From Gordonia asplenii (lineage in GTDB: Bacteria; Actinomycetota; Actinomycetes; Mycobacteriales; Mycobacteriaceae): 64,000 bases of DNA. A model generated the notes under the pieces. The model searched no databases and was not told the DNA's origin. It worked only from the letters and a program-made list of their open reading frames with translations. The translations under genes and the position numbers were made by a program. Of this stretch, positions 11,828 through 24,852 are shown one piece after another. Position 1 is the stretch's first letter; each line of letters starts with the position of its first letter. The stretch is from contig NZ_JABBNB010000030.1 of the NCBI RefSeq assembly GCF_012933505.1, positions 1-64,000 on the forward strand, in the 5' to 3' direction.

Positions 11828-12922
11828 GTGTCAATACTTGCCTCGCCGCCGCTCCCGGCCGCCACCGGTCGGCCGACCATCAGCTGCGCGGCCCGTCGCT
11901 CGACGTCGCCGGCGGCCGCGCGCCACGACGACTGGCTGCGTCCACACGGATCAGTGCGTTCCCGGATGGTCAACGGCTACCTCTCGCTGGTCGCGCCGCG
12001 GGCGATGGCCGCGGTCGAGCTGATTCCGCCGGCATTCGCACCGGCGATGGTGACCACATTGCGTCCCGCGGTGAATTCGACGCTGGTCGCGCTCAGTCCG
12101 ACACCTCGCGGGACCACTGCGCGCCCGGTATCGGTGTCGGTGCGCGGCACCCTGCCCGGCCGACCGGTCGAACATGTACGCGGCGAGTGGGTCTACGGAC
12201 CCGATGTCGAAAGACCGGTGGACCCGGCGTCGGCGTCGATCATCTACTACCTGCACGGCAGCGGTTACGTCGTCTGCTCGCCGCGGACGCATCGCGGACT
12301 GGTGTCGAGACTGTCGCAGCGGACGAGTCGCGCCGTGTTCAGCCTCGACTATCGGCTCGGCCCCCGCTATCACCAGCCGGCGGGCGGCGACGACACCATC
12401 CGCGGCTACCACTGGCTGCTCGACCTCGGGTATCGGCCGGAGAACATCGTCGTCGCGGGCGATTCCGCGGGCGGGCATCTCGCGCTGGACCTACTCGCCG
12501 ACAATCATCGGACCGGGACGGCGCAACCCGGCGGAATGGTCTTGTTCTCGCCGCTGCTCGACCCGACGTTCGGTCTCGCGGTGAACCGGCAGGCGCGCGG
12601 CGTTCGGGATCCGATCATCGATGCGGCGGCCGCCGCACGCTTCCTCGAGCTCTACACCGGTCGCGTCCAGCGCGACGACCCGCGCGTCATCGCGCCGATC
12701 ACCGCGGGAATGTCGTTGCCGCCCACGCTGATTCAGGTCGGCGCGCGCGAGGTGATGGCCGACGACGCGCGTGGCATCTACGACGAATTGCGAGTCGCGG
12801 GCGGGTTCGTGCAGTTACAGGAGTGGCCGGATCAAGGTCACGTGTTCCAGATGTTCCCGTATCTCACGCCGGAGTCGAGGCGCGCGGTCAGCGAGGCGGC
12901 CCGGTTCATCCGCGGGTTGTAG
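11828..12922 (+). CDS. Alpha/beta hydrolase, hormone-sensitive-lipase family esterase
   Basis: The HSL oxyanion motif appears as YLHGSGYV (HGSG in place of the usual HGGG). The nucleophile motif is GDSAGGH and the late catalytic residues lie in VGAREVMADD and DQGHVFQMF. It probably hydrolyses short- or medium-chain esters in the cytosol. The start is uncertain. GTG at 11828 (364 residues) follows a TATGGT -10-like element by 6 bases, fitting a leaderless transcript. ATG at 11966 (318 residues, MVNGYLSL) is where family-like sequence becomes clear. The upstream frame has coding-like third-position GC. It is followed by a hairpin shared with the convergent phasin-like gene. Confidence 0.85.
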   Translation: MSILASPPLPAATGRPTISCAARRSTSPAAARHDDWLRPHGSVRSRMVNGYLSLVAPRAMAAVELIPPAFAPAMVTTLRPAVNSTLVALSPTPRGTTARPVSVSVRGTLPGRPVEHVRGEWVYGPDVERPVDPASASIIYYLHGSGYVVCSPRTHRGLVSRLSQRTSRAVFSLDYRLGPRYHQPAGGDDTIRGYHWLLDLGYRPENIVVAGDSAGGHLALDLLADNHRTGTAQPGGMVLFSPLLDPTFGLAVNRQARGVRDPIIDAAAAARFLELYTGRVQRDDPRVIAPITAGMSLPPTLIQVGAREVMADDARGIYDELRVAGGFVQLQEWPDQGHVFQMFPYLTPESRRAVSEAARFIRGL

Positions 12923-12940
12923 TCCCCCGCCCCGCAACAA

Positions 12941-12996
12941 CTGAAAACCCCCCGTCACGAGGAGGGATTCTCCTCGGGCCGGGGGATTGTTTTCAG
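12941..12996. terminator. Bidirectional hairpin between esterase and phasin-like gene 1
   Basis: CTGAAAACCCCC pairs with GGGGG ... TTTTCAG around an inner stem CGAGGA/TCCTCG. The outer A and T runs give a terminator of intrinsic type in both directions. A diverged copy of the same hairpin lies at 13581-13634 downstream of phasin-like gene 2, so it was duplicated with the gene. Confidence 0.7.
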
Positions 12997-13013
12997 AGTT
13001 GTGTTCGGCTGTC

Positions 13014-13316
13014 TCACGCGGTCTTGCGGACGATCGAGAGCTTCTCGACCGAATCGGTCAGCGAGATGACCTGCTTGCGAATCGACTCGATGTTCTTGTC
13101 GGTCGGGCGCACAGAGTCGCGGATGTCGACGACGCGGCGGCGAGTGCCTTTCTCGACGTCGGCGGCAGTGTCGATCAGGTCGTCGAGAACATCTTTGGTG
13201 GAGTCGACGAACGACGACAGGAAGTCAGCCAGATGAGCCGTCTGCTTGACGCTCTTCTTCTTGGTGCCCTTGGCCTTGGCGGTAGCGGCGGTCTTGGTGG
13301 TGGTCTTTGTAGCCAT
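13014..13316 (-). CDS. Phasin-like PHA-granule protein, copy 1
   Basis: 100 residues with a Lys/Thr/Ala-rich tail (about 1-25) and then a long amphipathic helical stretch (FLSSFVDSTKDVLDDLIDTA, ending SIRKQVISLTDSVEKL). It has no cysteine, signal or membrane segment. Small helical proteins with a basic tail next to PhaR regulators are typical granule-coating phasins; here the assignment rests on architecture, the related gene at 23.1 kb beside a PhaR-like gene, and the shared promoter. AAGGAG lies 10 bases upstream of the ATG. Apart from the N-terminal tail it is nearly identical to copy 2. It could instead be another small coiled-coil or nucleoid-like protein. Confidence 0.65.
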   Translation of the reverse strand: MATKTTTKTAATAKAKGTKKKSVKQTAHLADFLSSFVDSTKDVLDDLIDTAADVEKGTRRRVVDIRDSVRPTDKNIESIRKQVISLTDSVEKLSIVRKTA

Positions 13317-13347
13317 GTCAGTGTCTCCTTGGTTGAGGTGTTCCCGT

Positions 13348-13390
13348 TTGCGTAATCAATACTTTACGCATCGCGTTATTGATTACGCAA
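13348..13390 (-). promoter_or_regulatory. Putative PhaR operator, phasin-like gene 1
   Basis: A perfect 14-bp inverted repeat, TTGCGTAATCAATA (13348-13361) and its complement (13377-13390), encloses a third half-site TTACGCA (13364-13370). It sits 32-74 bases upstream of the ATG, over the likely core promoter. The same half-site layout occurs at 13990-14032 and 23389-23430. Confidence 0.7.
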
Positions 13391-13395
13391 TGCGT

Positions 13396-13411
13396 TGTGA
13401 GACAAGTCACG
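13396..13411. promoter_or_regulatory. CRP/GlxR-like box, phasin-like gene 1
   Basis: TGTGAGACAAGTCACG matches TGTGA-N6-TCACA with one mismatch. It lies 5 bases from the putative PhaR operator on the upstream side of the promoter, about 87 bases from the start codon. Confidence 0.55.
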
Positions 13412-13423
13412 TGAGTGCCACCC

Positions 13424-13540
13424 GCCGGTTGAGCCGGGCCGGAGCGCAAGCGAAGGCCCGTGTCGAAACCACGCGACACACTCAAACTCGCGCGCCATGC
13501 CCGGGTTTCGACTCGGCTTCGCCTCGCTCAACCAACGGAA
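13424..13540. repeat. Inverted pair of interspersed repeat R1
   Basis: Plus-oriented copy at 13424-13473 (CCGGTTGAGCCGGGCCGGAG ...) and shorter minus-oriented copy at 13503-13540 (GGTTTCGACTCGGCTTCGCC ...). The pair lies between the two duplicated phasin-like units. Confidence 0.7.
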
Positions 13541-13580
13541 GAGGCGCTCGCTCAACAACGGAAGCAGTGGGCCCCGGACA

Positions 13581-13634
13581 TGAAAATCCCCCGACGACGT
13601 GGAGAGATTCTCCACGGTCAGGGGATTGTTTTCA
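13581..13634 (-). terminator. Terminator hairpin of phasin-like gene 2
   Basis: TGAAAATCCCC pairs with GGGGATTGTTTTCA, with an inner stem GTGGAGA/TCTCCAC. It is a diverged copy of the 12941-12996 hairpin, and compensating arm changes preserve the fold. Confidence 0.7.
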
Positions 13635-13652
13635 GAGCTGTGTTCGTCTGTC

Positions 13653-13958
13653 TCACGCGGTCTTGCGGACGATCGAGAGCTTCTCGACCGAATCGGTCAG
13701 CGAGATGACCTGCTTGCGAATCGACTCGATGTTCTTGTCGGTCGGGCGCACAGAGTCCCGAATGTCGACGACGCGGCGACGAGTACCCTTCTCCACGTCG
13801 GCGGCAGTATCGATCAGATCGTCGAGAACATCCTTGGTCGAATCGACGAACGACGACAGGAAGTCAGCCAGGTGAGCGGTCTGCTTGGCGCTCTTCTTCT
13901 TGGTGCCCTTGGCCTTGGTGGCGGTGGCGGTCTTGGTGGTGGTGGTCTTGGTAGCCAT
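13653..13958 (-). CDS. Phasin-like PHA-granule protein, copy 2
   Basis: 101 residues. From residue about 22 to the end it equals copy 1 (13014-13316) apart from one Val/Ala change; differences otherwise lie in the Lys/Thr-rich tail. The leader, ribosome site and operator are also nearly identical, so gene plus control region was duplicated recently as one unit. Many synonymous third-base changes with almost no amino-acid change suggest selection to keep the protein. It is divergent from the isocitrate-lyase-family gene, and the CRP-like box at 14038-14053 could serve both. Function is assigned as for copy 1. Confidence 0.65.
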   Translation of the reverse strand: MATKTTTTKTATATKAKGTKKKSAKQTAHLADFLSSFVDSTKDVLDDLIDTAADVEKGTRRRVVDIRDSVRPTDKNIESIRKQVISLTDSVEKLSIVRKTA

Positions 13959-13989
13959 GTCAGTGTCTCCTTGGTTGAGGTGTTCCCGT

Positions 13990-14032
13990 TTGCGTAATCA
14001 ATACTTTACGCACCGCGTTATTGATTACGCAA
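13990..14032 (-). promoter_or_regulatory. Putative PhaR operator, phasin-like gene 2
   Basis: The same perfect 14-bp inverted repeat as at gene 1 (13990-14003 and 14019-14032), with the internal TTACGCA half-site at 14006-14012. One base in the spacer differs from copy 1. Confidence 0.7.
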
Positions 14033-14037
14033 TGCGT

Positions 14038-14053
14038 TGTGGCTGAGCTCACA
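14038..14053. promoter_or_regulatory. CRP/GlxR-like box between phasin-like gene 2 and the ICL-family gene
   Basis: TGTGGCTGAGCTCACA matches TGTGA-N6-TCACA with one mismatch. The six central bases and the flanks differ completely from copy 1, yet the box is kept at the same distance, which argues for function. Confidence 0.55.
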
Positions 14054-14112
14054 GTTGAACCGGACCGCGCGAAACTCTCGACGATGTCGTACCCACGGAG
14101 TAGGCAGTACAC

Positions 14113-14880
14113 ATGACTACCCCCACCGACACCCTGCGCGGCTACGCCGACACCCTCCTCGCCCTGCATCAGCCCGGAAACCCCGTCGTCCTGCCCACCG
14201 TCTGGGACGCTTGGTCGGCAAAGCTCGCCGTCGACGCCGGATTCTCCGCACTCACCGTAGGCAGCCACCCGGTCTCGGACTCGATCGGCAAACCCGACAA
14301 CGAAGGCCTTACCTTCGACGATCTGTTGACCCGGGTCGCACAGATCACCGCTGCCGTCGACGTCCCCATCTCCGTCGACATCGAGTCGGGTTACGGCGAG
14401 ACCGCGCAGCGGTTGATCACCGGACTCCTCGACGCAGGGGCCGTCGGCCTCAATATCGAAGACACCGTGCACAGCGAGGGCGGACGCCTGCGAACATCGA
14501 CCGAACACGCGGAACTCGTTGGCGAACTGCGAAAGTCAGCCGACGATGCCGGCGTGCACGTCGTCGTGAATGCACGCACGGACCTCTTCATCCGCAACGA
14601 CGGCGACGATTCGGACCGAGTCGAACGCGTCATCGCCCGCCTCAACGAGGCCGCTGACGCCGGCGCCGATTCGCTGTACCCGGTCGGGCGCCACGACCCC
14701 GACACGCAACGTCGGCTCACCGGCGAACTGCGCCTGCCGGTCAATGCGATCGCGTTGCCCGGCGTCGACGATCCGGCGTCGTTCGGCCCGCTCGGCGTCG
14801 GCCGGATCAGCTTCGGACCGTTCCTACAGGGGGCGCTGGCCGGACACGCGACAACGCTGTTGGGTCGCTGGACCGACTGA
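14113..14880 (+). CDS. Isocitrate lyase/PEP mutase superfamily protein
   Basis: 255 residues, a single TIM-barrel of the ICL/PEPM superfamily. The Mg/substrate region is visible as PISVDIESGYGE, GLNIEDTV and VVVNARTDLF. It lacks the KKCGH-type catalytic loop of true isocitrate lyases, so it belongs to the small-enzyme group (2-methylisocitrate-lyase-like, oxaloacetate-decarboxylase-like or phosphonopyruvate-hydrolase-like). The substrate cannot be read from sequence. It is divergent from phasin-like gene 2 with a CRP-like box between them. A weak GGAG lies about 14 bases upstream of the ATG. Confidence 0.85.
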   Translation: MTTPTDTLRGYADTLLALHQPGNPVVLPTVWDAWSAKLAVDAGFSALTVGSHPVSDSIGKPDNEGLTFDDLLTRVAQITAAVDVPISVDIESGYGETAQRLITGLLDAGAVGLNIEDTVHSEGGRLRTSTEHAELVGELRKSADDAGVHVVVNARTDLFIRNDGDDSDRVERVIARLNEAADAGADSLYPVGRHDPDTQRRLTGELRLPVNAIALPGVDDPASFGPLGVGRISFGPFLQGALAGHATTLLGRWTD

Positions 14881-15030
14881 GACATCGGCAGGCAGTGTTG
14901 CGGCCCCGAGGCGCGCAACTGTCGGTATCCGGTAGCAGCGTGGCGCCTGGAACACAGCGCGAACGAACTGGCGTGCCCGGCCACTTTCGCCTGCGGGTCC
15001 CGGCCGGCACTCCGTTACCGGCCAGGACGA

Positions 15031-15999
15031 CTACGACCTTGTGTCCCAGCGGGATTCGACCGTCAGCACCAGTGCTGCCAACGTGGCATTGACCGGCGCA
15101 TGCAATCCGACCTTGGCGGCCTCGACCGGCACGGCACCGTTTATCACCCCGATCTCGCTCGGGCGCAGCGCTTCATGATCGAGGAGTGCCGACGGCTTGG
15201 CGTCCGGCATCTGCCGGCCGAACGCGATCGCGAACTCCACTGGATCGGCGACGGTGATCGGGATCTCCAACGCACGGGCCGTAGTCCAGGCCTCTGTCGC
15301 TGCGTCCTGACTGATCGGGGCCATAACGGCATCATCGATCACCTCGCCGACCGTCATTCCGGTCAGCGCGCATGGTGCGCTGTACGCGACGTTGCAGATC
15401 AGCTTCTCCCATTGCATCGCAGCGATATTCGATACGGCTTCCGCATCGAAACCGCCAGCCCTCCAGGCCTGCGCAACCCGTTCGACGCGTTCTCCGCTGA
15501 GTCCCGCATAGCTGCCGAGTCGGATGGCTCGCATCGCGTTGTGGTGTGCACGGCCGGGTCCGGTGCGCGCGGCGCCGAAGCCGCTGGCGATCCCCACCGC
15601 CAGCCGATCCGCCCCGACATGTTCGGCCACGAGGTCCGCCGAACCCAATCCGTTCTGAATTGTCAGGACCACTGTGTCAGTGCCGAGGAGCGGCCCAAGT
15701 GACCGCGCTGCGGCCGCGACGCCCGCTGCTTTGACCGCGAGCACGACCAGATCGACTGGCACGTCGGGTACGGATGTGTAGGCAGGCAGTCGAATTCCGA
15801 ATTCCCCGTCCGGGCCATCGACATATAGGCCCGCGGTGCTGATGGCAGCCACGTGATCGGCCCCTCGGTCGACCACGATCACATGGTGACCGGCACGAGC
15901 TAATCGTCCCGCATACACCGAGCCCATTGCACCGCAGCCGACCACGGCTACCGACATGGGTGCAGCGCGGTGTACCTGGCTCTCCTCGGCGTCGCTCAT
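15031..15999 (-). CDS. Ketopantoate reductase family NAD(P)H-dependent dehydrogenase
   Basis: 322 residues. The N-terminal Rossmann motif is AVVGCGAMGSVYAGRLARAG. Further ApbA/PanE-like signatures are VLAVKAAGV, TIQNGLG and WEKLICNVAYSAPCALTG. Such enzymes reduce 2-ketoacids; a true pantothenate role is unlikely because this is the last gene of a catabolic operon. The ATG at 15999 overlaps the preceding stop as ATGA; a second Met (MSVAVVG, 15957) is an alternative start. It likely acts on a ketoacid made by the upstream dehydratase-like enzyme (inference). Confidence 0.87.
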   Translation of the reverse strand: MSDAEESQVHRAAPMSVAVVGCGAMGSVYAGRLARAGHHVIVVDRGADHVAAISTAGLYVDGPDGEFGIRLPAYTSVPDVPVDLVVLAVKAAGVAAAARSLGPLLGTDTVVLTIQNGLGSADLVAEHVGADRLAVGIASGFGAARTGPGRAHHNAMRAIRLGSYAGLSGERVERVAQAWRAGGFDAEAVSNIAAMQWEKLICNVAYSAPCALTGMTVGEVIDDAVMAPISQDAATEAWTTARALEIPITVADPVEFAIAFGRQMPDAKPSALLDHEALRPSEIGVINGAVPVEAAKVGLHAPVNATLAALVLTVESRWDTRS

Positions 16000-17162
16000 C
16001 CCAACAGTGCCCCGATCTCGACGTCCAGACCTGGTTTGCCTTCGAGTCCGAATCCTGGGCGCTGTCCCGGGGTGATGACGCCGTCGACGACCGCGCAGTC
16101 GTCCGTGTACCCGCCGAAAGGTGCGAATACACCCGGATACGCCTCGCAGCCACCGAGTCCCATACCAGTGACGATGTGCAGATTGATCAGGTGCCCACCG
16201 TGCGGCACCGCCTGCCTGCGATCAAACCCTCGCTGCTCCATCAGATCGATCATCGCGGCGTACTCGGTAAGGCCATAGCTCAGCCCCGCATCCATCTGCA
16301 ACAGGTCGCGATCGGGCCGAAGTCCGCCGAAATCAAGGAGATTCACGGTATCGCCGACCGAGAAGAGGTTCTCACCCGTCGCGAGTGCGCCGCTATATGC
16401 CCCGGCGAGTTCACGATGCGACCGCAGATCCAGCGGGTCGACCGGTTCCTCGTACCAGCGCAGCCGATACGGCTCCAGCGCCTGGCCATACGCCAGCGCA
16501 GTCGCACAGTCGAAACGCCCGTTAGCGTCGACGGCCAGCCGTCCGCCATCACCGACGACGCTCAGCACTGCCTCGATGCGGCGTCGATCCTCGTCCAGCG
16601 GCGCGCCGCCGATCTTGATCTTCACCGCCTGATAGCCCGCATCGAGATAGCCGCACACCTCATCGACGAGTCCTCGGTCATCCCCGTCGCTGCGGTAATA
16701 GCCGCCCGCGGCATACACCGGAACTCCAGCGCTATTCGGTTGTCTGCCATGGTGATCGGCGATGATGGCATGCGCGGGTACATCGTCGATCTTGGCCAGC
16801 AGATCCCAGCACGCCAGTTCGATCGACGCGGCAGCCGCTGCGCGATCGCCGTGCCCTCCGGGCTTCTCGTCGCGCATCGCGGATGCCAGCACCCGCGCTG
16901 GATCGATCCGCCCGCTATCGGTGTCCAGCAATGTTTCTGGTGGTGCCGCAAGCACTCTCGGTATCATCCGGTCTCGGAGGATGCCGCTCTGAGCGAATCG
17001 GCCGATCGAGTTGAAAGCCACCCCTGCGACTGGGCGGCCGTCACGGATCACATCACTGATCACCGCGACCAGCGACACCGTGTGATCGGCGAAGCTGACC
17101 ACCGAGTTGCTGATCGCTCCACGAAGCGGCACACTGCGCTCGCGAATATCGACGATGCGCAT
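15996..17162 (-). CDS. Enolase-superfamily dehydratase, D-tartrate dehydratase-like
   Basis: 388 residues of the mandelate racemase/muconate-lactonizing family. Sequence blocks recall Bradyrhizobium D-tartrate dehydratase: NSIGRFAQSGILRDR, NEKPGGHG-type DEKPGGHG, VYAAGGYY, KIKIGGAP, AVDANGRF, ATGENLF, LSYGLTEY and VPHGGH. Predicted catalytic Lys183 and His321 and metal ligands Asp212, Glu238 or Glu239, and Glu264 are all present. Abstraction of a proton alpha to a carboxylate with loss of water would give a 2-ketoacid. ATG at 17162 overlaps the ligase stop by one base (TGATG). An upstream extension in frame is ligase shadow. The exact diacid or sugar-acid substrate is not certain. Confidence 0.82.
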   Translation of the reverse strand: MRIVDIRERSVPLRGAISNSVVSFADHTVSLVAVISDVIRDGRPVAGVAFNSIGRFAQSGILRDRMIPRVLAAPPETLLDTDSGRIDPARVLASAMRDEKPGGHGDRAAAAASIELACWDLLAKIDDVPAHAIIADHHGRQPNSAGVPVYAAGGYYRSDGDDRGLVDEVCGYLDAGYQAVKIKIGGAPLDEDRRRIEAVLSVVGDGGRLAVDANGRFDCATALAYGQALEPYRLRWYEEPVDPLDLRSHRELAGAYSGALATGENLFSVGDTVNLLDFGGLRPDRDLLQMDAGLSYGLTEYAAMIDLMEQRGFDRRQAVPHGGHLINLHIVTGMGLGGCEAYPGVFAPFGGYTDDCAVVDGVITPGQRPGFGLEGKPGLDVEIGALLG

Positions 17163-18697
17163 CAGGTGTCGGCCCGCTCTGCCACGAGGTCTGGTAGTCG
17201 GTGTTTGACGACCTTGCCGCTGGCCGTGCGCGGCAGCTCGTTGACTACCTCCACGTGTGTCGGGCATTTGTAGTGCGCGATCCGCTCCCGGCAGTACGCG
17301 ATCAATTCCCTCGGGTCCGGGTCGGTTGCGTCGGCGGCGACAACCACCGCCACCACGGTCTCGCCCCAACGGTGATGCGGCATCCCGAACACGCCCACCT
17401 CACTGACCGCCGGATGCTCGGCCAGCACGTTCTCGATCTCGACCGGGTAGACGTTCTCGCCGCCGGTGATGATCATGTCCGACATGCGGTCGGTCAGATA
17501 GAGATAGCCGTCAGCGTCGAGGTGTCCGGCATCCCCGGTACGGAACCACCGATCCGCATCGAAGGCTTTGACGTTGTCCTCGTCGTTCTGCCAGTATCCG
17601 GGCGTGACCAGCGGGCTGCGCGTCCAGACTTCGCCGGTCTCCCCGATGGCGGCATCGCCAGCGGTTCCGGGTACCCGCACCGCGATCTCGACACCGGCGG
17701 CCGGCCGCCCGGCCGATGCCAGCCGCGCGCCGCCGGTCCGGTGATCCTCGATGTCGAGAAATGTGATGGGACCGCAGGTCTCGGTCATGCCATAGCTCTG
17801 GATGAAGTCGCAGCCGAGGACCGATTGCGCCTCGACGATCAACGCCGGCGGCATCGGTGACCCCGCATAGATGAGGGTCTGCAGTTGGGGCAGCTCGATG
17901 GTCGCCGCCTCGGGTACACGCACCATCTCCTGCAGGATTGCCGGCACCGTCAGCATGTGGGTGGCCCCTACCTCCACCATGGTCGCGAGCACGCTCGCCG
18001 GTGACGCGCCGCCGGTACCGACGAAGCGGGCGCCGCGACCCAAGCAGTAGAAGAGCCAACCGGTTCCGGACAAGTGGAACAGCGGCGCCGGAACGCAGAT
18101 CACCGAGTTGTCGTCAATGACCCAGGGAGACGCGGCGGCCAGATTCGCCGCGATCTGGCCGTTGGTGACGCGTACCGCCTTGGGTGTGCCGGAGGTACCA
18201 GAGGTGTACATGAGAAGGACATCTTCGTCGGCCGGGTGATCGCGGGCGGGAACTTCAGTGGGCCCGTCCGCGCCCCAATCGGCATATTCTCCGACACGGT
18301 CTCGCTCTGCGTCGAACACCACGGTCACCGACTCATTCGACAGCGCCGGATTCACCAGCGCCGCAAACGCCACGTCGGCCACCACGACCGTCGGTCGGCA
18401 GTGACGGAGCAGACGATCGACCTCGCTCGGTGACAGCCGCCAGTTGATCGGGACCGCCGCGATGCCGGTCTTGCTGGCCGCGACCATGATCTCTGCCCAC
18501 GTCACCGGGTCGGCACCGACATACGCGATCGGCCCGGGAATTCCGGCGAGAACGGTCGAGAGCTGCGACGCACGACGGTCCAATCCCGCGAAAGTCTGCC
18601 GATGGCCTGCGACACTTGCGACCGCGATCGCATCGGGTTGGACCACCGCCCAGTGCTCGGTCATCGAGGCGATCGATTCCCACATCCGTATGTCCAT
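17162..18697 (-). CDS. AMP-dependent acyl-CoA ligase
   Basis: 511 residues of the ANL superfamily: P-loop LLMYTSGTSGTPKAV, A5 motif QSYGMTETCGP, hinge region FRTGDAGHLDADGYLYLTDR, and A10 lysine in PRTASGKVVKH. It activates a carboxylic acid to an acyl-CoA using ATP. The operon context (hydrolase before, dehydratase and reductase after) suggests the acid is an intermediate of the same catabolic route. It is 71 bases downstream of the hydrolase gene and coupled to the dehydratase gene. It lacks membrane segments, so it is soluble. Acid specificity cannot be predicted. Confidence 0.9.
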   Translation of the reverse strand: MDIRMWESIASMTEHWAVVQPDAIAVASVAGHRQTFAGLDRRASQLSTVLAGIPGPIAYVGADPVTWAEIMVAASKTGIAAVPINWRLSPSEVDRLLRHCRPTVVVADVAFAALVNPALSNESVTVVFDAERDRVGEYADWGADGPTEVPARDHPADEDVLLMYTSGTSGTPKAVRVTNGQIAANLAAASPWVIDDNSVICVPAPLFHLSGTGWLFYCLGRGARFVGTGGASPASVLATMVEVGATHMLTVPAILQEMVRVPEAATIELPQLQTLIYAGSPMPPALIVEAQSVLGCDFIQSYGMTETCGPITFLDIEDHRTGGARLASAGRPAAGVEIAVRVPGTAGDAAIGETGEVWTRSPLVTPGYWQNDEDNVKAFDADRWFRTGDAGHLDADGYLYLTDRMSDMIITGGENVYPVEIENVLAEHPAVSEVGVFGMPHHRWGETVVAVVVAADATDPDPRELIAYCRERIAHYKCPTHVEVVNELPRTASGKVVKHRLPDLVAERADT

Positions 18698-18768
18698 GTC
18701 GCCGTTTCTCTTTCGCGGAAGTCGGGTGAGGCTGGTGTCTCGTGTCGGAGCACTCGTGCCCCGGGTCG

Positions 18769-19890
18769 CTAGTTCAGCCGGTCGGCGATCCAGCCCGCGA
18801 CGAGATCTGCCATCTCGACCCGGGCGCCGTCGTCGCCGTTCGGCCGCCGGAAGTAGTGGTCGGCCGAGATGACATGCTGCTGAATGTCTTTCGATCCCAA
18901 GGCGGCCACGATGGCTGCGGCATCGCTGGGAAACACACCGGTGTCGCCGTCGGCATTGATCACCAGTGCGGGTTCGGTGATCCGCCCGAGGTGGGGAGCC
19001 GCACTGGTCTGCGAATCCTGGAGACTCCAGAGCGAAAGCCAGGTGCGCAGACTATTGGTGCCGGCGATGCCGAAGATCGAGTAGTTGGCCCTTGCCGGAA
19101 CACCGGCGTAGCAGGAATTCGGCTCTCGATTCGTCGGCTCGATCGACGGATCAACCATCCGCGGATCGGCCCACGCGCGGTACAGGTTGAAGAGCCGGTC
19201 GTGATATCCAGCCTCCTGCACGCGCGCGAGCTCCTTCTTGACCCAGTCGGTGATCCGATGATTGCGGGCCACCTGAGCCGCGCGGTACCGGTCGATGAAC
19301 TCGGCGTCGAACGGTGGCGTGCGCCCATCTCGGAACAGGCTGAGCTCGGGATCGGTTGCCAGTGGATCGTTTTCGTCAGTTACCGACGGATCGAACCAGT
19401 TCGTCAGTACTTCTGGACGCCCCAGGTGCGCGGCGGTGGACACATAGAGATCGGCCGCGGGCAGGTCTTCCACGCCGGTCGCCGGGCGCATGCCGTCTAG
19501 CGGCCGGACATTCGCCTCCTTGGCCTGTGACTGATAGGCGGCCATCAATGAACCGCCACCCGAGTTCCCCAGCAGCACGACATTTTCCACACCCTGTTCG
19601 CGCAGCCAGCGCACCCCTTGTCCGATGTCGACGAGCGCGTGATCGAGCAGAAAGGTGTGCTCGTTCCCGCGGAAACGGGTGTTCCAGCCCAAGAATCCGA
19701 TGCCCCGCTGGGCCATGTATTCGGCGAGATAGTGCTCGGAGAAGTCGATCGCATAATGCGCGGCGATCATCGCCGTCTTCGGCATCGCGCCGGCCGGCCG
19801 GTGATACACCCCCTGGCACGGATGGCCGCCCGCGCCGTGCCGCGCCGCCGTGGACGAATCGAGCGCGACCCAGTCGCGTTCGATTCTCAC
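18769..19890 (-). CDS. Alpha/beta hydrolase
   Basis: 373 residues with nucleophile motif LLGNSGGGSLMAAYQ, a C-terminal acid region (ALVINADGDTGVFPSDA) and a final His region (VISADHYFRRP). A middle cap of about 100 residues (WFDPSVTDEN ... RANYSIFGIAG) separates the halves. It probably cleaves an ester or a C-C bond of a ring-cleavage-type intermediate, in line with the VOC gene just upstream. It starts with GTG, overlapping the VOC stop as GTGA, so the two are co-translated. The substrate is unknown. Confidence 0.85.
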   Translation of the reverse strand: MRIERDWVALDSSTAARHGAGGHPCQGVYHRPAGAMPKTAMIAAHYAIDFSEHYLAEYMAQRGIGFLGWNTRFRGNEHTFLLDHALVDIGQGVRWLREQGVENVVLLGNSGGGSLMAAYQSQAKEANVRPLDGMRPATGVEDLPAADLYVSTAAHLGRPEVLTNWFDPSVTDENDPLATDPELSLFRDGRTPPFDAEFIDRYRAAQVARNHRITDWVKKELARVQEAGYHDRLFNLYRAWADPRMVDPSIEPTNREPNSCYAGVPARANYSIFGIAGTNSLRTWLSLWSLQDSQTSAAPHLGRITEPALVINADGDTGVFPSDAAAIVAALGSKDIQQHVISADHYFRRPNGDDGARVEMADLVAGWIADRLN

Positions 19891-20459
19891 CGCTGATTCG
19901 CCAGGGCTCGGATCCGTCGCTCACTCGCTGTCCGCGGTGTATGCGCCACGTCGTCGGGCGTGAATTCCCGGAGCCAACAGGCGAATTCGAGGAGAATACC
20001 GTCAGGATCCTGGAAATAGAACGACCGCACGTACACGCCGGGATGCATCTGTCTCGCGACCTGGGTCTCGCTGTCGTCATGGTTGACCACCGGACCGACC
20101 GCGACTCCGGCCTCCTTGAGCTTGCGGCGGTACTCGACGAACTTCTCGGCCGGTACGTCGAACGCGATGTGGTTCATCGAGCTGACCGCGCTGATCCACT
20201 CGCCGAAACCGGGTTTCTCGACCGGTGCCGACGCACCCGGGATCCCGTCGGGGGCCTCGGTGAACCAGAAGAAGGCAAGCGAGTTGCCGTTACCGGCATC
20301 GAAGAAGAAGTGCTGTCCCAAGCCGCCGGGCAGCTCGACCGTCTTGGTCAGCGGCATCCCCAGGACGCCCGAGTAGAAGTCCACGGTCCGCTGCATGTCG
20401 GAGCAGACGAGTGCCAGATGGTTGAAGCCCCGGAATTCAAAGGGACGATCTGTGGTCAT
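19887..20459 (-). CDS. VOC-family protein (extradiol dioxygenase/glyoxalase fold)
   Basis: 190 residues with vicinal-oxygen-chelate modules: FNHLALVCSDMQRTVDFYSG, then MNHIAFDVPAEKF and YFQDPDGILLEFACW. Possible metal ligands are His in FNHLAL, His in MNHIAF and Glu in LLEFACW, the usual 2-His-1-Glu pattern. It is likely an extradiol-type dioxygenase or a lyase/isomerase on the catabolic substrate. ATG at 20459 is chosen because of GAAAGG just upstream; the longer frame to 20621 has no support. It is the first gene of the operon and lies downstream of a candidate TetR operator. Confidence 0.85.
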   Translation of the reverse strand: MTTDRPFEFRGFNHLALVCSDMQRTVDFYSGVLGMPLTKTVELPGGLGQHFFFDAGNGNSLAFFWFTEAPDGIPGASAPVEKPGFGEWISAVSSMNHIAFDVPAEKFVEYRRKLKEAGVAVGPVVNHDDSETQVARQMHPGVYVRSFYFQDPDGILLEFACWLREFTPDDVAHTPRTASERRIRALANQR

Positions 20460-20479
20460 GGTCACACCTTTCGACAGAC

Positions 20480-20495
20480 CTGATACTAACGTCAG
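20480..20495. promoter_or_regulatory. Candidate TetR operator of the VOC operon
   Basis: CTGATACTAACGTCAG has 4-bp inverted arms CTGA/TCAG. It sits 21-36 bases upstream of the VOC start and 53 bases from the 3' end of the TetR gene, in the only gap where an operon promoter could be. The assignment is by position and symmetry only. Confidence 0.35.
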
Positions 20496-20547
20496 ATTCA
20501 TATTTTGGAAACCCCTCGACCGGCGCGGACGAGTGTCCGGTCGGCGG

Positions 20548-21177
20548 CTACGGATACCAGTAGATGGCTCGATACCAGATGTCCGCGAGCGTGGACACGG
20601 CCACGTCCTCCGCCACCCCACGGCCGTGACGGCGGTCAGCCAGCTGCTCGTAGCAGAACTGGTTGAGCATTGCGACGATCGCCTCCGCCGTCACATCGGG
20701 CCTGATCCCCGGGCAGTATCCGTCCGACTGCGCGCGCACGATCGTCTGCGCGATGCCGTCGATCGCAACACCGCACAGGTCGTGCCAATAGTGGGCGAAA
20801 TCGTCATCGACCATCGCCAGCTGACTGATCGCGATCATCTCCGCCAGCCGATCTCGGTAAGTGTCCCAATGCGCATGGGCAGAACGATCGATTCGATCAC
20901 GCGCCGTGAGCCCGTGTTCGTACGCGGGAGCCACCCGCTCACGGACCTCGTCCTGGAATCCTTTCGCCCAGTACCTGACGAGATCTTCCTTGGAGTCGAA
21001 GTAGTTGTAGAACGACGCCGAGGACCGGCCCGACTCGGCAGCGATATCACTGACCGTCAGTCGCAGGAAGCCCTTGTCCTCGATGACCTTTCGCGCCGCC
21101 GCCTCGATCGCCGCCAGCGTCTCCCGCCCGCGCGCGGTCGGACGCGCAAGTGCCCTCTTCGGTTCCGGCTCCATCAT
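20548..21177 (-). CDS. TetR-family transcriptional regulator
   Basis: 209 residues. The N-terminal helix-turn-helix is clear: AAARKVIEDKGFLRLTVSDI, AAESGRSSASFYNYFDSKED. The C-terminal ligand domain is unassigned. It is upstream of and co-oriented with the VOC-hydrolase-ligase-dehydratase-reductase operon, 88 bases away, so it is the natural local regulator; ligand likely a pathway substrate or CoA ester (inference). It may also be the first gene of the same transcript. Confidence 0.92.
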   Translation of the reverse strand: MMEPEPKRALARPTARGRETLAAIEAAARKVIEDKGFLRLTVSDIAAESGRSSASFYNYFDSKEDLVRYWAKGFQDEVRERVAPAYEHGLTARDRIDRSAHAHWDTYRDRLAEMIAISQLAMVDDDFAHYWHDLCGVAIDGIAQTIVRAQSDGYCPGIRPDVTAEAIVAMLNQFCYEQLADRRHGRGVAEDVAVSTLADIWYRAIYWYP

Positions 21178-21360
21178 CGGCGATGCCCGCCCGGCAGATC
21201 CCTCACGCGAGACACGTTACGACCCACCGGGCAACCGCACGTATGAAACATCGTGCGCTATCCGAGACCAGAGACCGCTATTTCAGCGCAGGTGAGTGAC
21301 GGAGGCGTCGTGGTACGCGCGGCGAGCCGGCGTGGGAAAGTCGGCAAAATAGCAGGTCAC

Positions 21361-21379
21361 CAAGGGCAGAATGCCCTTG
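21361..21379. other. Hairpin in the 5' region of the DUF389 gene
   Basis: CAAGGGCA and TGCCCTTG form a perfect 8-bp stem with a GAA loop, 88 bases before the probable start codon. It may be a leader structure or a terminator. The remaining gap (21178-21466) shows nothing I recognise. Confidence 0.4.
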
Positions 21380-21466
21380 CCGGAACAAATATCGACGGGT
21401 TTTCGCGAGCGGCCAGCCCCCCACGCAGCTGGCGTACACGCTCGGGTACCGGGCAGAATCTCGCCT

Positions 21467-22414
21467 GTGCTGAACATCCGGGTCATTGCGCCCGCTCACC
21501 TCTGCGACGCCGCCCGTGCACTCGTCGACGACGATCCCACCGTCGCCGACGTCGTGCAATTGGCCGGTACAGCCGACAACGGTCTGCTGCTGTTCGACGT
21601 CGCGCGCGAGAACGCCAATGCAGTCCTCGCCGGGCTTCGTGCGCTGGGCATCGAACGGTCGGGATCGATCACCCTCACCGAGCCGCTGACGACGATCTCC
21701 GACGCCGCGCACGCGGCCGAGGCCCACGCACCCGGCCATCCCGACGACGCCCTCGTCTGGGAGCAGATCGAAGACCAGGCCCGGGACAGTTCGCGTTGGT
21801 CGTGGTCGTTCATCGGATTTCTGTTGCTGGCGACGCTGATCGCCAGTGTCGGGCGGTACACCGATCAGCCCATCCTCATCGTCGGAGCGATGGTCGTCGG
21901 ACCGGAGTTCGCCCCGATCAGTGCCGTCTGCATCGCCCTGGTGCGTGGGCGTCTATCGCTGATCCCTCGCGCGTTCGGCACTCTGCTGGGCGGATTCCTG
22001 CTGGCCTGCGCTCTGACGTGGATGCTGTGGGCGATCGCCTACGCACTCGGCTGGATCGACTTCACCAAGGCGACCACCGGCGAGCTCACCGAGTTCATCG
22101 TCGCCCCCGACATCTGGTCGTTCCTGATCGCTCTGCTCGCCGGGTGTGCGGGCGTGCTGTCGCTGACCTCGTCGAAGTCAGCGGCGTTGGTCGGCGTGTT
22201 CATCTCCGTCACGACCGTGCCCGCGGTGGCCACCCTCGGCCTGACCCTCGCGGTGGGCGCCTGGGCCGAGACCTGGTCGGCGTTCGTTCAACTGGCGGTG
22301 AACGTCGCCGGACTACTCATCGCGGGAACCGCGACGCTGCTGGCGCAACGGCTCGCGTGGCACCGGTTCGGCCGGCTGCCCAAGGCGATGATCACTCCCC
22401 GGTCTGCTGCTTGA
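21467..22414 (+). CDS. DUF389 integral membrane protein
   Basis: 315 residues starting at GTG 21467 (VLNIRVIAP). An N-terminal soluble part of about 110 residues is followed by 5-6 hydrophobic segments, including WSFIGFLLLATLIASVG, the conserved PILIVGAMVVGPEFAPISA and LIALLAGCAGVLSL. DUF389 proteins are widespread and uncharacterised; transport or envelope roles have been suggested. An upstream in-frame ATG (21371) adds poorly conserved residues. The 3' end overlaps the convergent phaR-like gene by 23 bases. Function unknown. Confidence 0.88.
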   Translation: MLNIRVIAPAHLCDAARALVDDDPTVADVVQLAGTADNGLLLFDVARENANAVLAGLRALGIERSGSITLTEPLTTISDAAHAAEAHAPGHPDDALVWEQIEDQARDSSRWSWSFIGFLLLATLIASVGRYTDQPILIVGAMVVGPEFAPISAVCIALVRGRLSLIPRAFGTLLGGFLLACALTWMLWAIAYALGWIDFTKATTGELTEFIVAPDIWSFLIALLAGCAGVLSLTSSKSAALVGVFISVTTVPAVATLGLTLAVGAWAETWSAFVQLAVNVAGLLIAGTATLLAQRLAWHRFGRLPKAMITPRSAA

Positions 22415-22934
22415 GGAGCAGCGTCACCGCCTCGGTCAGCTGCGCGACCTGATCGCGCAGCTCCTGGATCTCGGCCTCCTGCCGCTCGATCTGGGCGTTG
22501 GCTTCGTTGAGACCGTTGGACTTGTCGGTATCCCCGCCGGCCAACGCTCGTGCGGCGTTCACCAGCGCGGCGATGTCGGCGGAGCTTGTTCGTTTTCCGG
22601 TCACCGCCTCCTCCTTCTTCTCCGAACCGATATCTGAAATGCGGCTGTCCAAACCCGTCCCCTCGACGACGGTCTTGGCGACGTCAGCCGGCGCCCGCAA
22701 CAGATCGGCCAGGAAATTCGACGACCCCGGCGTCGACTGCGCTTTGCGCCGGAGCACCTGCGCGAGCACCTCGTCGGTACGATCGACACCCGAGTCATGG
22801 TCGCGCACAACGACTTTCTTCCCGTCGTCGAGTAACGCCGCCACCTCGTCGAGCGTCGTGAACTTGCGCCGGACCGAGTCGTACAGTTTGCGGTTCGAGT
22901 ACCGCTTGATCAAATATTCTTCGTCGTCAGACAT
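22392..22934 (-). CDS. phaR: PHA synthesis regulator PhaR-like DNA-binding protein
   Basis: 180 residues. Residues about 6-65 match the PHB/PHA accumulation regulator domain (LIKRYSNRKLYDS, then KFTTLDEVAALLDDGKKVVV). The C-terminus is a predicted coiled coil (QIERQEAEIQELRDQVAQLT). In known systems PhaR binds PHA granules and phasin promoters, releasing DNA when polymer appears. The ATG has GAGG 9 bases upstream. It is immediately downstream of, and co-oriented with, phasin-like gene 3, whose promoter carries the shared operator. I see no operator copy at its own start. The regulatory role here is inferred. Confidence 0.85.
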   Translation of the reverse strand: MSDDEEYLIKRYSNRKLYDSVRRKFTTLDEVAALLDDGKKVVVRDHDSGVDRTDEVLAQVLRRKAQSTPGSSNFLADLLRAPADVAKTVVEGTGLDSRISDIGSEKKEEAVTGKRTSSADIAALVNAARALAGGDTDKSNGLNEANAQIERQEAEIQELRDQVAQLTEAVTLLLKQQTGE

Positions 22935-23069
22935 CTGCCGTCCTCATATCCGCGCCTGCCACGCCCGTTGCCGGCGTCATCGTCCCAGCCTAATCGTCGC
23001 CGAACACGACAAACGCCCGGACGCGGTCTTAGGACCTCGGCCGGACGTCAGCGCGGGAAAGCGCGTCGA

Positions 23070-23360
23070 TCACTTAGTCGAAACGCGCAGGTTGGCGAGC
23101 TTCTCCACCTGATCGGACAGGTTGCGGACCTGCTTGCGCAGCGACTCGATGTCGATGTTCGACGGCGTGACCGTCTCGCGGACGTCGTCGGCGCGCTCAC
23201 GAACGTCCTTCTCGACGTCGCCCGCGGTTTCGAGCAGGTCGTCGACGAGATCCTTGGTGGAGTCGATGACCGACGAGAGGAAGTTGGTGATGTGAGCTTC
23301 CTGGGTCTTCTTGGCCTTCTTGCCTTCGGTGGACTTGGTCGACTTCTTGCTGCTTGCCAT
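23070..23360 (-). CDS. Phasin-like PHA-granule protein, copy 3
   Basis: 96 residues. It has a Lys/Ser-rich N-terminal tail followed by an amphipathic helix (FLSSVIDSTKDLVDDLLETA, ESLRKQVRNLSDQVEKLANL) clearly homologous to copies 1 and 2 but diverged. ATG at 23360 is preferred because GGAG is 8 bases upstream; a GTG 9 bases earlier is in frame. It precedes the phaR-like gene by 135 bases in the same direction. The promoter carries the three-half-site operator and a perfect CRP-like box. No phaC synthase is in the window. Confidence 0.68.
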   Translation of the reverse strand: MASSKKSTKSTEGKKAKKTQEAHITNFLSSVIDSTKDLVDDLLETAGDVEKDVRERADDVRETVTPSNIDIESLRKQVRNLSDQVEKLANLRVSTK

Positions 23361-23388
23361 GCTGATCACTCCTTGTTGGTGTTCGCGT

Positions 23389-23430
23389 TTGCGTAACTAA
23401 GACATTACGCAGACGCGTAAGTTTACGCAA
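23389..23430 (-). promoter_or_regulatory. Putative PhaR operator, phasin-like gene 3
   Basis: Half-sites TTGCGTAA (23389-23396), TTACGCA (23405-23411) and TTACGCAA (23423-23430) repeat the spacing seen at genes 1 and 2 (8 bases, then 11 instead of 12). Flanking sequence differs, so the half-sites stand out as conserved. Confidence 0.7.
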
Positions 23431-23435
23431 CGCGT

Positions 23436-23451
23436 TGTGATGCAGTTCACA
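23436..23451. promoter_or_regulatory. CRP/GlxR-like box, phasin-like gene 3
   Basis: TGTGATGCAGTTCACA is a perfect TGTGA-N6-TCACA match, 5 bases beyond the operator on the upstream side, the same placement as at genes 1 and 2. Confidence 0.65.
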
Positions 23452-23460
23452 CCAATGGAG

Positions 23461-24852
23461 TTAGTGGACCAGGTTCTCCATCAGCACCACCTGCAGGTCA
23501 CCGACGAGGAAGCCCAGGATGGCACCGACCATGATCAGGGTGTTCTCGTCGGCCTGGAAGGCCGGACGCAGCACGCCCTCGAACTCCTCCGGAGTCATGG
23601 CGACCATCTTCTCGACCATGGTCTCCTTAATGCGTAACGCCGAATCGAGATACTCCTCGGCCGGGCCGGCCATCAGCTTCGGCATCACATCGACGAGGTC
23701 TTCGGCCGCGGCCTGGCACATCGGCTGGATCTGCAGCACATCGAGCCCGACTCCGGTGACGCCCTTGAGCGGCACACTGGCCGCACCCGTGACCGCCCCC
23801 AACAGGTTGCCCACCGAGACCGGGCCCACGCCGAGCTCTTTGAGTCCCGACAAGTCGCCGACCTGGGATTCGACCATCTTGTCGACGTCGCCGACCTCGT
23901 CGCGCAGCGACTCTTCGATGATCCCCGCGAACAGGTCGACGAGCTTCTTGCGGTGCGGTCCTTCAAACAATCCGCGGACCAGCCGGTCAGCGGTAAGCAC
24001 GCGCGTTGCGATCAGCACGCCGTATTCCTGCGAGACCGGGATCTTGTGCTTGAGGAACAGTCCGTGCCACTTGATCACGCCGAAGTACTTCTTCGGCTCC
24101 TTCGGGTTGAAGATCAGGCGCAGCGCGGCCCAGTCGGTGAACCAACCGGTGAACAGGCCGAACAGCGGCATCATGATCGGGCTGCGGAAGATCAGCCACA
24201 CGCAAACCTGGACCAGACCGATGAGGAAACCGAAGAACAGGCCACTGCGCCGGATGAAGGCGAACTCGCGGCTGCCGACCTCCAGGAACATCTTCTCCAG
24301 GGTGTCTGGATCGGCAAGGAACTCCTTGGTCACCATCGCCTGCAGATCGAACACCTCGTCGATGTTTTCGGTCAGCGAATCCACCAGGGACACAACGGCA
24401 TCGGGTGCGGCGCGCTGCGTCCTCTCCACGACGAGGTCGCGCGCCGGGCTGGGCAGGATGTTCCACGCCGCCGGCTGGTACTCCTCGGCGACGTCGCGGA
24501 CGATCCGCGCCACTTCGGCACGCATCGGTCGATCGATGAGCGCCGCGAGTTCGGCGCCGTCGACGCGCTCGATGATCTCCTGGGACGAGATCAGCCGGCC
24601 GGTCAGGGTGTCGCAGAGCACCTCGACCATCTCCGGCGCCCGTTTGGGGATGATGCCCTGCCACCCGATCGGGCCGATGCCCTTGAACTTCTGCGGCCGG
24701 AACATCATCTTGATGGCCACGATCTTGGTGCCGTAACCGATGAGTGCCGCGATAATCGGCATCGTCGCGTACACCCACCAGTGATGTTCGATGTCGGTGA
24801 TGATCTCGGGAACGGATTGAATCGTCGCCGTAAAGATGTCGGACCATTGCAT
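23461..24852 (-). CDS. DUF445 family membrane protein
   Basis: 463 residues from ATG 24852 (MQWSD). Hydrophobic segments lie at the N-terminus (YATMPIIAALIGYGTKIVAI), the middle (GLFFGFLIGLVQVCVWLIF) and the C-terminus (MVGAILGFLVGDLQVVLM), separated by long soluble helical stretches with DUF445 blocks MMFRPQKFKGIGPIGWQG and IIPKRAPEMVE. The family is uncharacterised. Upstream in-frame extension to 25032 lacks a ribosome site. It lies upstream of phasin-like gene 3 in the same direction; the phasin promoter elements start 10 bases after its stop, so it is probably a separate transcript. Confidence 0.87.
   Translation of the reverse strand: MQWSDIFTATIQSVPEIITDIEHHWWVYATMPIIAALIGYGTKIVAIKMMFRPQKFKGIGPIGWQGIIPKRAPEMVEVLCDTLTGRLISSQEIIERVDGAELAALIDRPMRAEVARIVRDVAEEYQPAAWNILPSPARDLVVERTQRAAPDAVVSLVDSLTENIDEVFDLQAMVTKEFLADPDTLEKMFLEVGSREFAFIRRSGLFFGFLIGLVQVCVWLIFRSPIMMPLFGLFTGWFTDWAALRLIFNPKEPKKYFGVIKWHGLFLKHKIPVSQEYGVLIATRVLTADRLVRGLFEGPHRKKLVDLFAGIIEESLRDEVGDVDKMVESQVGDLSGLKELGVGPVSVGNLLGAVTGAASVPLKGVTGVGLDVLQIQPMCQAAAEDLVDVMPKLMAGPAEEYLDSALRIKETMVEKMVAMTPEEFEGVLRPAFQADENTLIMVGAILGFLVGDLQVVLMENLVH

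Follow-up and report, generated by a model that had tools for sequence, protein, structure and literature searches.

Palindromic PhaR-type boxes upstream of phasin-like genes in Gordonia asplenii and related actinobacteria

Why should three small phasin-like genes at two separate loci of the Gordonia asplenii genome share one upstream sequence design, and which protein might read it? We addressed this question in the first 64,000 nucleotides of contig NZ_JABBNB010000030.1 (assembly GCF_012933505.1; hereafter the window), where phasin-like genes 1 (13014..13316, 100 residues), 2 (13653..13958, 101 residues) and 3 (23070..23360, 96 residues) lie on the reverse strand, as does a gene for a 180-residue PhaR-like regulator with a PHB_acc_N domain (22392..22934). 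A preliminary description had placed these genes correctly and had proposed that they share an operator whose half-site, TGCGTAA, is the site of PhaR; the coordinates and spacing that it gave for the shared motif were exact for all three genes. TTGCGTAA-N8-TTACGCA matches at 13348, 13990 and 23389, with TTACGCAA lying N12, N12 and N11 beyond TTACGCA, at 13383, 14025 and 23423, respectively. These are the only matches in the window, and each of 100 dinucleotide shuffles gave none. TGCGTAA itself occurs 10 times in the window, against 2.41 expected, and nine of the 10 copies lie inside the three phasin-like promoters, the remaining one (23631) being within a neighboring DUF445 gene. Across the whole 6.64-Mb genome the motif was found solely at these three places, upstream of phasin-like genes and at no unrelated gene, and a reversed control gave 0 matches. 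Genes 1 and 2 arose as a tandem duplication (12942..13399 and 13581..14041) that took in the promoter and the 3′ region as well as the gene itself, the copies being 92.6% identical over 462 bp. The first two motif loci are therefore not independent, and the independent evidence comes from the third site and from those of other genomes.

To re-parse the half-sites, we compared the promoters that these genes have in other genomes. As aligned, the half-sites are the arms of three palindromic boxes of the form TTACGC-N3/4-GCGTAA. The partner arm fits best at a gap of 3 in the left (upstream) and middle boxes (4.2/6 and 4.3/6, respectively) and at a gap of 4 in the right (downstream) box (5.1/6), with at most 2.9/6 at all other gaps from 0 to 12. 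Thus, the half-site of the preliminary description is real, but the unit is a palindrome whose partner arm stands 3–4 bp away. Read on the gene (reverse) strand, the boxes of gene 1 are CAACGC-ATT-GCGTAA (left, 13383..13397, 10/12), TAACGC-GAT-GCGTAA (middle, 13364..13378, 11/12) and a degenerate TTACGC-AAAC-GGGAAC (right, 13340..13355, 9/12, N3 and N4 tied). Those of gene 2 lie on the same strand at 14025..14039 (left, 10/12), 14006..14020 (middle, 11/12) and 13982..13997 (right, degenerate, 9/12, again tied), and gene 3 has CAACGC-GTT-GCGTAA (left, 23423..23437, 10/12), TTACGC-GTCT-GCGTAA (middle, 23405..23420, 12/12) and TTACGC-AAAC-GCGAAC (right, 23381..23396, 10/12), also on the reverse strand. 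Seven boxes in the window score at least 10/12, and all seven fall within the three promoters; there were none in the other 63.6 kb, nor in 72.8 kb sampled elsewhere in this genome, which takes in the three full-length PhaC_N loci. Because the consensus was taken from such promoters, these counts show specificity and not independent discovery. Perfect boxes are found in G. shandongensis (TTACGC-GTG-GCGTAA and TTACGC-AAAC-GCGTAA) and in Tsukamurella pseudospumae (TTACGC-GCC-GCGTAA).

The same architecture recurs among relatives. We compared 14 promoters from Gordonia, four Tsukamurella, Mycobacterium aquaticum and a metagenome-assembled genome (MAG), a set that includes two paralogous pairs (win1/win2 of the window and a/b of the MAG) and leaves out four promoters of the Gordonia genomes G021 and G026, Nocardioides caeni, an Anaerolineales locus and the second phasin-like gene of Tsukamurella 8F. 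Each of the 14 contains two or more boxes scoring at least 10/12, and nine contain three. The distance from the middle to the right half-site is 8 bp in 13 of the 14. The left box fits YGC-RNY-GCR in every promoter, and the middle box fits it in 8/14 as scored, a count in which the Tsukamurella 8F row was mis-parsed and fits by eye. Conservation, calculated on 12 promoters (win2 and G056b omitted; 11 where the right box was needed), is 0.98 in the half-sites, 0.60 in the spacer and 0.45–0.49 in the flanks.

The distribution of the motif follows that of the regulator. Among 151 relatives, PF07879, the family of the PhaR-like protein, was found in six, all Gordonia; the exact motif was present in three of these six and in 0/145 PhaR-negative relatives (Fisher p = 4e-5). 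In the three motif-bearing genomes every copy of the motif lies near the PhaR-like gene, no farther from it than ∼10 kb in the window and less than 1 kb away in the others. These results bear on whether the block might be nothing but a promoter, served by an alternative sigma factor or by CRP, together with inherited sequence and no PhaR operator. The promoters are homologous, so that conservation comes partly from descent; moreover, the half-sites coincide with the inferred −35 and −10 elements, and a CRP-like site is present. Against this stand the absence of the motif from PhaR-negative relatives, the palindromy at particular gaps and the alternation of strongly conserved half-sites with variable spacer and flanks. 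In addition, the cores agree with published PhaR boxes, and in G021 and G026, whose PhaR is the most diverged, phaR stands apart and is preceded by a box of its own (TGACGC-AGT-GCATAA). We regard a plain promoter as a very unlikely account of the block.

Phasin-like genes occur in 6 of 59 Gordonia genomes, the same six that encode the PhaR-like protein; because the phasin-like alignment was built from these genes, it could have passed over phasins of greater divergence in other genomes. A full-length DUF445 protein of at least 59% identity is found in the same six, and its gene precedes the phasin-like gene in all six, twice in G021 and G026. Five other Gordonia genomes match DUF445, four at 33–38% identity and the fifth being G028. 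In this PhaR-negative genome the DUF445 gene is truncated (68% identity over 68 residues) and is apparently the remnant of a lost cassette. The composition of the cassette also speaks to the idea that some other DNA-binding protein reads the boxes, such as the TetR-like regulator encoded at 20548..21177, which was named by eye from its translation. That gene lies <3 kb from the cassette in the window. However, what related genomes have in common is DUF445–phasin–PhaR, and PhaR is the sole member predicted to bind DNA, which makes a different reader of the boxes highly improbable.

Outside Gordonia, we covered the best 80 of 270 loci. Alignment A4 comprised 34 of the 80 retrieved loci plus the window; alignment A6 comprised six loci plus the window and left out L026, whose DUF445 is split over three matches, and L032, whose match meets a stop close to its start. 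L027, L031 and L034 correspond to the loci already represented by G020, G013 (G. shandongensis) and G026, and each pair entered the counts a single time. The DUF445–phasin–PhaR arrangement is present in four Tsukamurella, with the DUF445 gene of PLM1 appearing broken, and in Nocardioides caeni the DUF445 gene is divergent from the phasin-like gene. Mycobacterium aquaticum and a MAG labeled Acidobacteriaceae have phasin-like and PhaR-like genes and no DUF445 in the stretch examined. A contig with this Acidobacteriaceae label (L028, CAJCHX010000460.1) carries two phasin-like genes with their operators, plus a gene for a PhaR-like protein, all closely resembling the Tsukamurella counterparts; mis-binning or transfer is a possible source of the likeness. 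In an Anaerolineales MAG, TGACGC-AAT-GCGTCA (L036:2582-2596), with perfect 6-bp arms, stands just upstream of a small, weakly phasin-like gene beside a PhaR-like gene; this site suggests that the PhaR box extends to Chloroflexi.

A second element adjoins the boxes. On the reverse strand, a CRP/GlxR-like site lies at 13396..13411 upstream of gene 1 (arms 9/10), overlapping the left box by 2 bp, and further sites lie at 14038..14053 upstream of gene 2 (arms 9/10) and 23436..23451 upstream of gene 3 (arms 10/10). Thirteen of the 14 promoters, all but G056b, have a TGTGA-N6-TCACA site that shares 2 bp with the left box; its arms match 10/10 in nine, 9/10 in three and 8/10 in one. By their outer arms, the central TA not being scored, these sites fit the GlxR consensus TGTGANNTANNTCACA given in the accessible text of PMC4254451. 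Across the 12-promoter set, conservation is 0.97 in the arm columns, compared with 0.61 in the spacer and 0.45 in the bases immediately upstream, a contrast that suggests more than descent alone. A CRP-type protein is encoded in 8/8 genomes tested; since this family was also present in 14/14 control genomes, its presence lends weak support.

Taken together, we think it likely that the conserved block serves granule-coat genes as both operator and promoter, where a PhaR-like repressor would block a CRP-activated promoter until granules titrate the repressor away. The three boxes would cover the core promoter: a putative −35 element (TTGCGT) falls in the left box and a putative −10 element (TAAAGT or TAATGT) in the right arm of the middle box, and the right box spans the predicted start. 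A single PhaR-like protein, identified by its PHB_acc_N domain, would bind the boxes, probably as one dimer per box. When no inclusion surface is available it would shut the phasin-like genes, and as hydrophobic granules form it would be drawn off the DNA, so that phasin-like protein is made. This sequence of repression, relief by titration and autoregulation is modeled on the anatomy of the locus and on the proteobacterial systems. phaR, 135 bp downstream of phasin-like gene 3 on the same strand, is probably co-transcribed with it, which would make the regulator autoregulatory; in G021 and G026 autoregulation could instead act through the box upstream of the convergent phaR gene. How general phaR autoregulation is has been doubted by the authors of a Sinorhizobium meliloti study, in the accessible text of PMC12542648. 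To judge from its site, cAMP-CRP/GlxR may add activation by carbon status, and, because the site overlaps the left box, activator and repressor would compete at the promoter.

Several results weigh against this interpretation. No box scoring at least 10/12 was found across 46.8 kb surrounding the three PhaC genes, which makes the small PHA-granule regulon put forward in the preliminary description uncertain. The right box prefers N4 in 11/13 promoters and ties in 2/13, and hence does not fit the published single-base center. The four promoters of G021 and G026 have two boxes each (at least 9/12) rather than three, and none has a CRP site of at least 8/10 overlapping a box; two of the four have an 8/10 CRP-like match 20 bp upstream, and the apparent −35 is TTGAC-, compared with TTGCGT elsewhere, a pattern that fits a trade-off between the activator and −35 strength in one pair of close lineages only. 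In Nocardioides caeni, where genes for PhaR, a phasin-like protein and DUF445 are all present, no box of at least 10/12 lies upstream of the phasin-like gene, the second of the two phasin-like genes of Tsukamurella 8F is without boxes, and M. aquaticum has no recognizable right box at the usual spacing. A sigma-70 scan of 12900–14200 gave no promoter, the −35 and −10 hexamers being a reading by eye. Family assignments are also incomplete. The regulator scores 48.7 bits against the TIGR01848 PhaR equivalog model, missing the cut-off of 109.45, and for this reason we call it PhaR-like and not PhaR. It has no match at E ≤ 1 to PF05233, which we take to be the C-terminal PHB_acc domain associated with PhaR, although weak matches may be lost in HMMER filtering. 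The small proteins match PF05597 at 15.0 (gene 1) to 16.3 bits, below the cut-off of 28.8, and TIGR01837 at 19 bits for gene 3 against 94.7 and not at all for genes 1 and 2; they are phasin-like by weak similarity and context. Finally, the PhaR-positive genomes G013 and G021 have no PhaC_N match, and their best class-III PhaC-like match reaches ∼98 bits against a cut-off of 365.

The proteins of the cassette are otherwise recognizable. The regulator reaches the PF07879 cut-off of 25 with 60 bits and is the single match to this family in the whole genome. Its C terminus is predicted to form a long helix (residues 139–178). The N-terminal domain is predicted to fold as strand-strand-strand-helix-strand-helix, with no clear PDB match; this contrasts with a recent paper (PMC12849132, accessible text) in which the PhaR N-terminal domain is termed helix-turn-helix. 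The DUF445 membrane-protein gene (23461..24852, reverse strand) lies directly upstream of phasin-like gene 3 and matches PF04286 at 62.5 bits (cut-off 33.8); its likely start is the ATG at 24852, the mechanical open reading frame extending to 25032. For phasin-like gene 3, the mechanical frame begins at a GTG at 23369, and the ATG is at 23360.

Which inclusion would the regulator sense? PhaC_N matches the genome of the window strain three times over its full length and once partially, and a PHA synthase is thus present, as the proposal of a PHA-granule regulon called for. PhaC_N is also found in 7/8 PhaR-positive genomes outside Gordonia. PHA is therefore the likely inclusion in the window species. 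Nevertheless, the association within Gordonia is weak: full-length PhaC_N occurs in 11/59 genomes, 3/6 PhaR-positive and 8/53 PhaR-negative (Fisher p = 0.07). G013 and G021 keep the DUF445, phasin-like and PhaR-like genes with no recognizable synthase, so the granule need not be PHA, and G026 has a class-III-like PhaC gene alone (275 bits, below the cut-off of 365). It is possible, if somewhat doubtful, that the regulator and operator are as proposed and that the inclusions coated by the cassette are, in some species at least, triacylglycerol or wax-ester droplets and not (or not only) PHA. To our knowledge, triacylglycerol droplets are expected in all Gordonia, yet the cassette is present in only 6/59. 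A lipid-droplet-titrated regulator from another family (MLDSR) does exist in Rhodococcus jostii RHA1 (PMC5504291, accessible text). Still more tentatively, PhaR might be a general sensor of hydrophobic inclusions, with the cassette of synthase-less Gordonia under the control of neutral-lipid droplets and DUF445 an unrecognized partner that forms or tethers inclusions. Overall, the preliminary description is partly supported: it was right in outline, wrong in the unit of recognition and too firm in naming PHA as the granule, with two of six PhaR-positive Gordonia lacking a recognizable synthase; neither the linked DUF445 gene nor the CRP/GlxR-like site figured in it.

The boxes define a putative actinobacterial PhaR-box regulon to the base and suggest that the Gordonia group, too, adjusts the coating of its granules to their formation. 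Through the cassette, storage inclusions would also be connected with DUF445, a domain of unknown function. Because the three-gene cassette is present or absent within one genus, the question of what PhaR senses is directly testable. An open-access literature search returned no paper joining DUF445 with phasin, and no actinobacterial PhaR operator appeared in the titles and abstract openings among the matches listed. In the available text of a paper on actinobacterial PHA (PMC8146576), "PhaR" denotes the class IV synthase subunit, and a 2008 study reported that Rhodococcus RHA1 has no protein highly similar to known phasins (PMC2667194, accessible text).

The operator itself resembles known ones, as far as the accessible texts of the papers cited describe them. 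Among actinobacteria, MLDSR-MLDS of R. jostii RHA1 (PMC5504291) is likewise an inclusion-titrated regulator acting on the operator and promoter of its own operon; MLDSR differs in being of another family, with a predicted XRE-type helix-turn-helix and 126 residues, in its DNA box and in responding to lipid droplets rather than PHA. PhaR-phaP1 of Ralstonia eutropha (PMC12849132) has palindromic boxes, three in number, of which two stand at the −35 and at the start, with repression by steric hindrance and titration by granules. Its third box lies within the open reading frame, its half-sites are TGC where those here are CGC, and the available text mentions no CRP-type site such as the one found here. 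Another likeness is to PhaR/AniA of S. meliloti and other alpha-proteobacteria (PMC12542648), with a palindromic YGC-RNY-GCR box, AT-rich arms, a regulator that binds polyhydroxybutyrate and titration by granules. In S. meliloti two boxes per phasin promoter flank the −35, whereas here three would cover the core promoter; here, too, the arms are mostly TTA/TAA, the right box has N4, the motif occurs only at phasin-like genes, DUF445 is a partner, and there is a CRP/GlxR-like site, Crp and cAMP being absent from the main text of that paper. The published PhaR motifs are WNWD2NYGCRNYGCRNH2WNW for S. meliloti, YTKNTGCRNYGCANMAR for R. eutropha (PMC12849132) and NGCN3GC[GA]N3 for Bradyrhizobium diazoefficiens (PMC10888616), and those of S. 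meliloti and R. eutropha have the same YGC-RNY-GCR core as the boxes here at N3. The operator, for which the preliminary description knew of no actinobacterial precedent, is thus a variant of the PhaR box already known from Proteobacteria and not a new recognition code, and the agreement suggests that one operator code (YGC-N3/4-GCR) is common to Proteobacteria and Actinobacteria.

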